A stretch of DNA of 64,000 bases. Origin: Bdellovibrio sp. NC01. GTDB lineage: Bacteria > Bdellovibrionota > Bdellovibrionia > Bdellovibrionales > Bdellovibrionaceae. The stretch spans positions 1,116,001 through 1,180,000 of the forward strand of contig NZ_CP030034.1 of the NCBI RefSeq assembly GCF_006874625.1, given 5' to 3'. Positions 3,508 through 59,451 of the stretch are shown here, one piece after another. The notes under the pieces were generated by a model. The model did not search any database, was not told the DNA's origin, and saw nothing but the letters and a program-made list of their open reading frames with translations. Position 1 is the stretch's first letter, and every line of letters starts with the position of its first letter. The translations under genes and the position numbers were made by a program.

Positions 3508-3771
3508 TTATTCGATTTTAACGACTTGTTTGCTGTGAAGATCAATGTCGAGCATCACTGGATTTCCAGAAGCAAGCCCATTCTTCAAAGGCGCACAAAA
3601 CGGATGCGGTTGTGAAGGATTCAAAGAAGTCTGAAAAAACGCAACTTGCGGAGTCGAACGATCTTCAGCAGTGACAAAGACAACATCACCATAACTCACG
3701 GTCGCAGACCCAATCGTCTGAAACCCACACTGCACTTGAAGAATAAAAGCCAACACCTGAACCATTCGCAA
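3508..3771 (-). CDS. Short hypothetical ORF, possibly a decayed secreted protein
   Basis: 87 residues from a TTG, or 85 from the ATG two codons later; an in-frame stop lies just upstream. The N-terminus is hydrophobic but not a convincing signal peptide, and no good ribosome site is visible. Cys residues at QCGF and FCAP could pair. It may be the remains of a longer secreted protein. Its left neighbour on the same strand is another secreted unknown, and the foldback element lies upstream. Low certainty. Confidence 0.4.
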   Translation of the reverse strand: MRMVQVLAFILQVQCGFQTIGSATVSYGDVVFVTAEDRSTPQVAFFQTSLNPSQPHPFCAPLKNGLASGNPVMLDIDLHSKQVVKIE

Positions 3772-3885
3772 AAAAGCCTAATTCTTACGACTTTTTAATT
3801 CAAGACATTGTCCACACTTATGCAAAGCATCCATCCACACACCAATAGAACTCCACACCCGCCATCTCTCATACCCAGATTTTAA

Positions 3886-4119
3886 TTTTTCTCTTTTTCA
3901 AAAACAAATTCATCGAAGGCAAAGATTCGCAGAAGGCAGAGATGTGCCTTAGCGTATGAGGCCTTCGTCGGCGCCACGATGGCGCGAACCAATGGCCAAA
4001 GGCCATTGGCGACGATTGAGCCCGGATGGCGTGCCGAAGCAGCTAAGGTGCAGCTCTGCCTTTTGCGAATCCCTCGCACAACGATGAACCATTTAATTTT
4101 GAAGAATGAGAAAAAGAAA
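3886..4119 (+). repeat. Foldback element copy A: three-way-junction core on a long self-complementary stem
   Basis: The core at 3960-4036 matches 59106-59182 at 76 of 77 bases. It folds as P1 TCGTCG (3965-3970) with CGACGA (4010-4015), P2 GCGCCA/TGGCGC (3971-3976, 3980-3985) and P3 CCAATGGCC/GGCCATTGG (3989-3997, 4001-4009). Outer arms of about 75 bp (3886-3959 and 4037-4119) are largely complementary: TTCATCG, GATTCGCA, AGGCAGAG and CCTTAGC all find partners. These arms share no sequence with those of copy B. Three of four differences in the well-paired part of the arm (about 3926-3953) are G-U pairs if the plus strand is RNA, which favours plus-strand transcription. Small open frames across it have no ribosome site and are not called. 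Together with the terminator below it fills the 390-base gap between genes. Confidence 0.75.
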
Positions 4120-4164: not shown

Positions 4165-4806
4165 CTACTTTACGTACTGAATTAATTGCTCTTCAGCGAA
4201 GCGGACTTTTTTAAGAGCTTGGAAAGAATCTTCGGAGTGTCTGTACCCCAAAGCAACAGTGGCAACAGATTTCCAGCCTGTGCCTTCGAGACCTAATATT
4301 TTATCGTAGGCGGCAGGGTCGAAGCCTTCCATTGGAGTGGCGTCGATTTTCAATAATGCTGCCGTCTCTAGCAGGAATCCCATCGCGATATAAGCTTGGC
4401 GTTGAGACCAAACGTTAATCTTTTCCTCCGGGCCCTTAGCTAGGTTATTAATCATCATATTTTTATAATCATTCAGTGCTTCCGCAGGGACGCCGCGAAC
4501 TTCAACGATGCGATCGATGTATTTCTGAACGAAAGCTTCATCGATTTCCGCCTTATAAGCGAAGACCACATAGTGGCTCGCATCCGTCACTTGCGTTTGA
4601 TTCCATGACACGGGTTTCAATTGCTCGCGGATTTTAGGGTTTTCGACCACCAAGAATTTCCAAGGCTGAATACCATAAGAGGAAGGGGCTTGAACTAAGG
4701 ACTCCGTTAGAGTCTTCCAGTCTTGAGCTGAAATCTTCTTATTGGCGTCATACTTTTTTGTGGCATAGCGCCATTCTAGAGCTTCTTGGATCTTTGCATG
4801 TGTCAT
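4165..4806 (-). CDS. NAD(P)H-dependent nitroreductase family oxidoreductase
   Basis: 213 residues, the usual length for the FMN-containing nitroreductase family. The N-terminal motif EWRYATKKYDANKKIS holds the FMN-binding arginine/lysine block; LVQAPSSYGIQPWKFLVVEN is the conserved substrate/FMN segment, and MGFLLETAALLKIDATPMEGFDPAAY followed by VALGYRHSED closes the fold. It probably reduces quinones or nitro compounds in the cytoplasm as a homodimer. The ATG follows AAAGGAGA. It is divergent from an Rrf2 regulator, a common pairing for redox-responsive control, and is followed by a strong terminator. Confidence 0.9.
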   Translation of the reverse strand: MTHAKIQEALEWRYATKKYDANKKISAQDWKTLTESLVQAPSSYGIQPWKFLVVENPKIREQLKPVSWNQTQVTDASHYVVFAYKAEIDEAFVQKYIDRIVEVRGVPAEALNDYKNMMINNLAKGPEEKINVWSQRQAYIAMGFLLETAALLKIDATPMEGFDPAAYDKILGLEGTGWKSVATVALGYRHSEDSFQALKKVRFAEEQLIQYVK

Positions 4807-58811: not shown

Positions 58812-58837
58812 AAAAAGAAATTTAATTTAAAAAAATC

Positions 58838-58877
58838 AAAAAGGCTCTGAGCAAGAAAAACTCAGAGCCTTTTTATT
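58838..58877 (+). terminator. Terminator after the racemase gene
   Basis: AAGGCTCTGAG / CTCAGAGCCTT stem, A-rich before and TTTTTATTTT after. Confidence 0.9.
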
Positions 58878-59038
58878 TTCAAAACCACAAAAATTAAATT
58901 CCACCAATCGCACTCAACAAAAGAAACCAATCACACCAACAACTTTTTTCGTTTGAGCACTAAACCGTTGAAGCACAATCTCTAAACAGATCAGCAACCT
59001 AAATTGCTTTCGTTCATCATGAAAACCTTCTCAGTACA

Positions 59039-59256
59039 TATATAAGACAAATGATGGTCATCAAAAGCAATTTGGCTCTCTTATTAAGGAGGAGCCTCCG
59101 AAAGCGGCCTTCGTCGGCGCCACGATGGCGCGAACCAATGGCCAAAGGCCATTGGCGACGATTGAGCCCGGACGGCGTGCCGCTGAAGCGAGGCACCTCC
59201 TTAATAAGAGAGACAAACCCCGCTCGAAGCGATGACCAAACCCCAAGTCTTATATA
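59039..59256 (+). repeat. Foldback element copy B: same core, different stem
   Basis: The core at 59106-59182 is 76/77 identical to copy A and folds in the same three-way junction. Its outer arms (59039-59105 and 59183-59256) are complementary to each other (TATATAAGAC, TGGTCATC, CTCTCTTATTAAGGAGG, GCCTC and AGCGG all pair with partners) but share no similarity with the arms of copy A. It occupies the middle of the 640-base gap between the racemase terminator and the Fis-type gene. Bases 58878-59038 are A/C-rich with nothing else clear; 59257-59451 show only a ribosome site for the next gene. Confidence 0.75.
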
Positions 59257-59451
59257 AGCGACCCGAAGGTTCTCAAGAAAGAACGAAAAAGCAATAGAGA
59301 TTGCAGGACTGGTTAAAAGGCCAGTGTTTCAAAGAGTTTAAAGTGTCTCAAAAAAAAATTGCATCTGGCTCTTTAGTCTCACGATGGAACGCCGATAGGT
59401 ACAAAGTGAGTCAAATATCATTCGATAATGTTTCAAAAGGGGAGGACTAGA

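Follow-up and report, generated by a model that had tools for sequence, protein, structure and literature searches.

A dispersed Bdellovibrio foldback repeat with a fixed three-way-junction tip, a possible one-way transcription-stop cassette

Two foldback copies in the window

The window is the whole stretch of DNA analysed here, 64,000 nt from the genome of Bdellovibrio sp. NC01 (G000), and positions follow its own numbering unless another genome is named. A covariance model search of this window found exactly two foldback copies, A and B, whose parts are as follows.

3690-3885, plus strand: leader of copy A, rut-like, A/C-rich and G-poor on the core strand
3886-3953, plus strand: left arm of copy A, with outer helix, distal internal loop and variable helix; partner 4042-4119
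3960-4036, plus strand: core of copy A, the three-way junction tip (BLAST, fold and covariance model)
3960-3963/4031-4035, 3965-3970/4010-4015 and 3971-3976/3980-3985, plus strand: helices P1, P2 and P3 of core A
3989-3997/4001-4009 and 4020-4022/4028-4030, plus strand: helices P4 and P5 of core A
4042-4119, plus strand: right arm of copy A, with 46 nt between its end and the stop codon of minus-strand ORF 4165-4806
58850-59038, plus strand: leader of copy B, A/C-rich and G-poor, regularly spaced C absent by the rule used
59039-59099, plus strand: left arm of copy B; partner 59190-59256
59106-59182, plus strand: core of copy B, the three-way junction tip, with a single difference from that of copy A
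59190-59256, plus strand: right arm of copy B, upstream of the plus-strand ORF at 59428

As the initial annotation had claimed, the two copies share a 77-nt core with a single difference (76/77 identical, 99% by BLAST). This core folds into the three-way junction described there, and an additional small hairpin (GCC-CGGAU-GGC) is also present on its 3' side. The covariance model matched copy A at 3950-4046 with 92.5 bits. Copy A had an MFE of −114.8 kcal/mol (z = −11.2) and copy B of −109.5 kcal/mol (z = −9.4), and for each of them 0 of 200 shuffles folded equally well. In G003 and G019, the gene of the plus-strand ORF beside copy B also has an adjoining foldback copy. Searching the window with Rfam 15 gave only a tRNA above the gathering threshold, and a relaxed search gave nothing credible; a known RNA family was set aside, since no Rfam family fits.

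Extent, anatomy and insertion of the family

A covariance model built from 46 cores found 26 copies in the genome of NC01, where BLAST listed 19 (L019 and L020 in the BLAST list are two pieces of a single copy). Foldback copies were present in 22 of 24 Bdellovibrio species genomes, which establishes a real multi-copy family; G013 and G015 have about 30 each, and B. bacteriovorus HD100 (G001) gave 14 covariance model matches. Outside the genus, matches occurred only in one genome of the same family, with a weak case in the same class. Pattern and BLAST searches returned no match in viral contigs and phage records and one weak partial match in plasmids, and a phage or plasmid origin was discarded on these grounds. 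The Rfam MIR918 match in HD100 was a chance match to the long hairpin. Literature searches, whose coverage was partial, found no described Bdellovibrio repeat of such kind. We are nearly certain of the family itself, which is previously unrecorded and reaches about 30 scattered copies per Bdellovibrio genome.

On the core strand, a copy opens at its 5' end with the A/C-rich leader, which is followed by the left outer arm and the distal internal loop. A helix of 20-30 bp, free in sequence, then leads to the proximal loop and on to the fixed tip, which is made up of P1, the P2/P3/P4 three-way junction and the small P5 hairpin. The proximal internal loop, next to the core, reads CCGAAG... / ...ACCGAAGC. 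The distal loop reads ...GCAAA/CAGATTTG, or alternatively ..CGAAGGCAAA, on its left side and CAAATCC.CGC..CGAAG on its right side. Sequence freedom is limited to the helix between these two loops. The earlier statement that copies have no similarity outside the core is thus right for this variable helix, which differs freely, but not for the two internal loops, where short motifs recur. Some copies carry about 30-80 nt extra in the tip, often self-complementary, namely L020 (G000:C1:2549050-2549153), L264 (G006), L117b and L163b (G009) and L156 (G013).

The left and right arms of the same copy had a median complementarity score of 60 (147 copies), against a mean of 14 and a 95th percentile of 19 for arms taken from different copies, and 145 of the 147 scored above 19 for their own arms. 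Arms were unrelated between most copies, and covariance analysis of the cores revealed extreme covariation in the family. The self-complementarity of unrelated arms, noted at first for copies A and B, therefore extends to almost every copy above chance, and the test set beforehand, a search for further core copies with pairing arms, yielded many. On the core strand there was no T enrichment after the stem (T fraction.18-.21 at +40 to +80 past the core); an intrinsic terminator was rejected, as a U-tract directly 3' of the hairpin is absent.

The foldback inserts as a unit. At the locus of a 358-codon gene, the convergent stop codons are 4-48 nt apart in 12 genomes without the element, and the convergent genes are 223-278 nt apart in 5 filled genomes. 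Between the sister species G003 and G006, one copy (L261) amounts to 241 bp inserted at a stop codon, with the 6-bp duplication AAAATA, and another (L258) is an insertion of about 384 bp with an 8-nt overlap in an A-run, its own A/C-rich leader included. Comparison with genomes lacking the insert, as the initial annotation had proposed, thus revealed whole-unit insertions with apparent short target duplications in sister-species pairs. The same comparison refuted its suggestion that the arms were copied from flanking DNA, because both arms arrive with the 200-400 bp insertion at filled versus empty sites. At other loci the foldback had been deleted or P3 had been lost.

In five species the foldback sits inside an IS1-like insertion sequence (IS), whose inverted repeat is AAACTGATCC; it lies between the transposase stop codon and the right inverted repeat. 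The transposase, of 290 aa, is related to NCBIfam IS1 (E = 2e-11, below the curated cut-off). Such IS copies with a foldback are L168, L182, L109 and L110 (G002), L169 (G016), L170 (G017), L172 (G020) and L171 (G023). Three copies in G002 represent a single IS1-like insertion sequence and have their arms in common; at L110 a putative 9 bp target duplication, GATTCTTTA, was read off. The tip is altered in the G023 copy, and more distant IS1 relatives lack the foldback. The IS1-like transposase is absent from the window's own genome, and the octamer of the IS inverted repeat was found at 8 of 147 copies against 7 expected, the IS copies themselves being four. We rejected solo copies as IS remnants or MITEs, since the terminal inverted repeat of the IS-like element is absent from them. 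A retron, a DGR or reverse transcriptase snap-back was likewise rejected, as no RVT_1 reverse transcriptase was found in G000 and 19 other genus genomes (including G003, G006 and G015).

Stem turnover, leader composition and gene context

Two sister-species pairs supplied about 40 orthologous pairs, in which the arms differed by 16-21% and the nearby flanks by 7-15%, the copies and orthologue pairs being phylogenetically non-independent. Arm divergence was very uneven, with many pairs unchanged and others 30-70% changed. In the 15 pairs that had changed and could be aligned, the inner 30 bp contained 107 compensated doubles versus 26 singles, and the helix changes clustered (40 adjacent versus 27 expected; 1/2000 shuffles). 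About half of the compensated changes were of transversion type, for which there is no route via a single G-U step. As the changes are unpolarised, these data are indirect evidence of simultaneity. Replication template switching has been proposed to explain multi-base compensated changes and perfect stems in RNA hairpins (Monttinen and Loytynoja 2022, PMC8794818). The compensated and clustered helix changes seen here probably reflect DNA-level template switching plus selection, judging from the sequence comparison; block replacement through conversion from another copy may be an alternative route of stem turnover.

The initial annotation had taken the G-U pairs of copy A as a hint that the plus strand is the RNA. 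Among the variable core pairs, however, about 2,700 were Watson-Crick, and G-U (8 pairs, 0.3%) was as rare as A-C (9 pairs), so G-U pairs are a weak mark of an RNA. We also abandoned the G-U strand test as evidence of direction: it gave 30:2 in G000 by eye, 36:14 for isolated mismatches and 145:152 for whole helices over all copies, and with 30:2 set against 145:152 it is indecisive. The choice of strand survives on other grounds, the leader and the end of an HD100 RNA, which identify the core strand as the functional direction, while the G-U argument for it is weak.

The left flank on the core strand is A/C-rich and G-poor (A.36, C.27, G.15, T.21), a bias that the right flank lacks (A.27, C.23, G.23, T.28). 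This leader lies 5' of most copies and had escaped the initial annotation. The skew averaged 0.237 in leaders versus −0.007, was positive in 90% of copies and faded over about 500 nt. It was present in all gene contexts, whatever the direction of the left gene, and replication direction had no effect on it. Several exceptions are head-to-head pairs with overlapping leaders. For the left gene at the 358-codon locus, the third positions of its last 60 codons had A.31, C.53, G.06 and T.10 where the element is present (5 genomes), versus A.21, C.35, G.18 and T.26 where it is absent (17 genomes).

Head-to-head copies, separated by a few hundred nt and with their leaders pointing towards one another, include L007/L008 (G000:C1:588981-589456). 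L265, L246, L271, L249, L049, L129, L166, L117, L163 and L044 are also arranged head to head, and leader skew tends to cancel there; HD100 has such pairs at 1191855/1192180 and 2138259/2138542.

We applied a published 78-nt rut rule, with a threshold of C/G > 2 and spaced cytosines (PMC6407284). It picked out 52% of leaders; the rate was 4% in random windows, 9% in right flanks and 1% on the opposite strand. Leaders were also less structured (−0.177 vs −0.236 kcal/nt). The leader of copy A (3651-3885; A.36, C.31, G.12, T.21; MFE −0.121 kcal/nt vs −0.236 for random) passed the rule with a top 78-nt C/G of 5.17 and regularly spaced C, and that of copy B (58820-59034; A.41, C.24, G.10, T.26; MFE −0.155 kcal/nt) failed its spaced-C part.

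In orthologue pairs, all substitution types in the left flank were raised about 2-3 fold after correction for composition, with a transition fraction of 0.48 versus 0.57 on the right. Deamination or an R-loop was rejected as the origin of the leader skew, as this spectrum has no transition bias; the skew could still be partly mutational in origin. Comparison of L245 (G006) with L308 (G003) showed that the leader in one of these sister species has acquired a 213-nt A/C-rich stretch.

A copy usually lies just before its right-hand gene, and where that gene is on the minus strand its stop codon is a median of 73 nt from the core. By crude ORF calls, gene order at 144 copies was convergent in 63, ++ in 36 and -- in 34. 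The left gene is mostly in sense orientation and runs in the opposite direction in about 29% of copies. In several clusters, the right-hand gene was common to species more often than the left-hand gene. An EF-G-like gene (by eye) stands on the right of L005, L023, L027, L102 and L107, in at least 5 species, with the copy just past its terminator; the left neighbours differ between those species, which suggests a recurrent or long-kept site.

Contact between a transcript and the element, which the initial annotation had asked about, can be seen in published RNA data from HD100. APsRNA6 is an attack-phase RNA of this strain, mapped to 1338787-1339441 on the plus strand (PMC3627812). We checked the HD100 coordinates by finding the c-di-GMP-I riboswitch where merRNA was mapped (PMC3627812). 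APsRNA6 passes through an antisense-oriented copy (1339150-1339244). Its end, 1339441, lies 4 nt inside the core of another copy, which is sense-oriented, partly deleted and preceded by an A/C-rich leader, at one locus taken from a published table, where coverage can drop at a strong hairpin for technical reasons. Other sense-oriented copies of HD100 lie, for instance, at 1480776, 1033013 and 976190.

APsRNA6 contains a 92-codon ORF (HD100 1338822-1339090; GTG start; membrane segment predicted by eye), followed by the antisense and the sense copy; instead of an sRNA it could be a small mRNA under FliA control. The merRNA riboswitch itself scored 54.3 bits, slightly below the Rfam gathering score of 59.

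Proposed function and relation to known systems

We propose that the family is a dispersed, insertable, one-way and probably Rho-dependent transcription-stop or 3'-end cassette, a reading to which we give an even chance, with moderate confidence in its mechanism. Transcription of the core strand would first yield 60-300 nt of unstructured, A/C-rich and G-poor RNA that would offer Rho a rut-like landing site, and then the long hairpin with its fixed three-way junction cap. Rho loaded on the leader would halt the polymerase at the hairpin or just beyond it. The hairpin would mark and protect the RNA 3' end, while the fixed tip and the GAA loops probably bind a protein; Rho action, 3'-end protection and protein binding are the steps that we infer. 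Read-through from the left-hand gene, or antisense transcription, would in this way be ended just before the right-hand gene. Arm-to-arm template switching at replication would copy changes between the arms and selection would remove broken copies, so that the helix could change fast and stay paired. In the roughly 29% of copies with an opposite left gene, the cassette would act on antisense RNA only, and so few G-U pairs (0.3% of the variable pairs in the core) are surprising in a structure selected purely as RNA. More tentatively, this may be a mobile one-way Rho-terminator cassette across the genus, its stem continually rewritten by DNA template switching and its tip read by a putative protein.

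A structured ncRNA or a protein-recognised 3'-UTR module, acting in mRNA stability or as an sRNA without any Rho link, is rather unlikely in our view. Strong covariation, a conserved tip and loops and the HD100 transcript that touches the element would suit it, and a leader of low structure would then only prevent misfolding. However, the leader has a rut signature (C>G, spaced C) that goes beyond low structure, core G-U is as rare as A-C, and a conserved promoter was not seen. We regard as unlikely, too, a DNA-level hairpin with no role in transcription, in which a transposase or recombinase would act on the folded strand of a MITE-like or single-strand recombination element. Strict Watson-Crick pairing with triloops, insertions with apparent short target duplications and the foldback-bearing IS1-like element of five species argue for it. 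Against it stand the solo copies, at which the IS inverted repeat is no commoner than expected, and the host genome of the window, which lacks such a transposase; the rut-like leader, the codon effect in the neighbouring gene and the tight gene-end placement would also go unexplained.

The smooth decay of the skew over 500 nt, and its entry into coding sequence in every context, could instead reflect local mutational asymmetry, in which a leftward R-loop or strand displacement and deamination of the exposed strand make a functionless A/C-rich flank. This we consider improbable, since all substitution types are raised with no transition excess and an A/C-rich leader already arrives with inserted units. 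Snap-back copying of flanking DNA or RNA, for example by a reverse transcriptase, would build inverted arms around a fixed tip, as the nearly identical cores and unrelated arms of L001 and L002 might suggest. It is hardly credible: the empty sites contain no such flank, which refutes it at the loci tested, recent duplicates in G002 share their arms, and RVT_1 is missing from the genomes searched.

Bacteria commonly carry dispersed palindromes next to gene ends; their role and the upkeep of their stem pairing are long-standing questions. Here one genus, including the model predator HD100, offers more than 100 natural copies at every stage, empty, filled, rewritten and decaying. This makes testable whether a mobile repeat is a source of ready-made one-way terminators, and whether template switching or slow compensatory mutation keeps long hairpins paired. 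Any protein found to read the tip would count as a new RNA-binding or termination factor.

The family resembles Rho terminators and REP/MITE repeats, none of which matched it on all the defining features tested. With Rho-dependent terminators it shares an unstructured, G-poor leader with C>G and a hairpin less than 150 nt downstream, on one strand, and 52% of leaders pass the rut rule; unlike known rut sites, it is a dispersed repeat with a conserved foldback, whose Rho dependence is putative. Insertion as a unit is likewise not known for rut sites. As with intrinsic bidirectional terminators between convergent genes, the position is convergent in 63 of 144 copies, but the foldback is far longer and has a structured tip, no U-tract after the stem and a sense-strand leader. 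Like MITEs of the IS1-like family, the copies are short and many, appear to make short target duplications and have a counterpart inside an IS1-like IS, whereas the terminal inverted repeat of the IS is absent from solo copies.

The hallmarks of REP elements are a conserved 20-40 nt palindrome, a GTAG/CGTC tag and a RAYT transposase. REP/BIME repeats, too, are numerous palindromes that lie between genes at gene 3' ends and have been suggested to act in termination or mRNA stability; REPs measure 20-40 bp and are conserved in sequence (PMC3733652), whereas the foldback stem is 70-80 bp and sequence-free, and only its tip and loops are fixed. Compensated multi-base changes and perfect stems are shared with template-switch hairpins, which were described for microRNA and rRNA stems (PMC8794818), whereas here a long-stem repeat family turns over in blocks.
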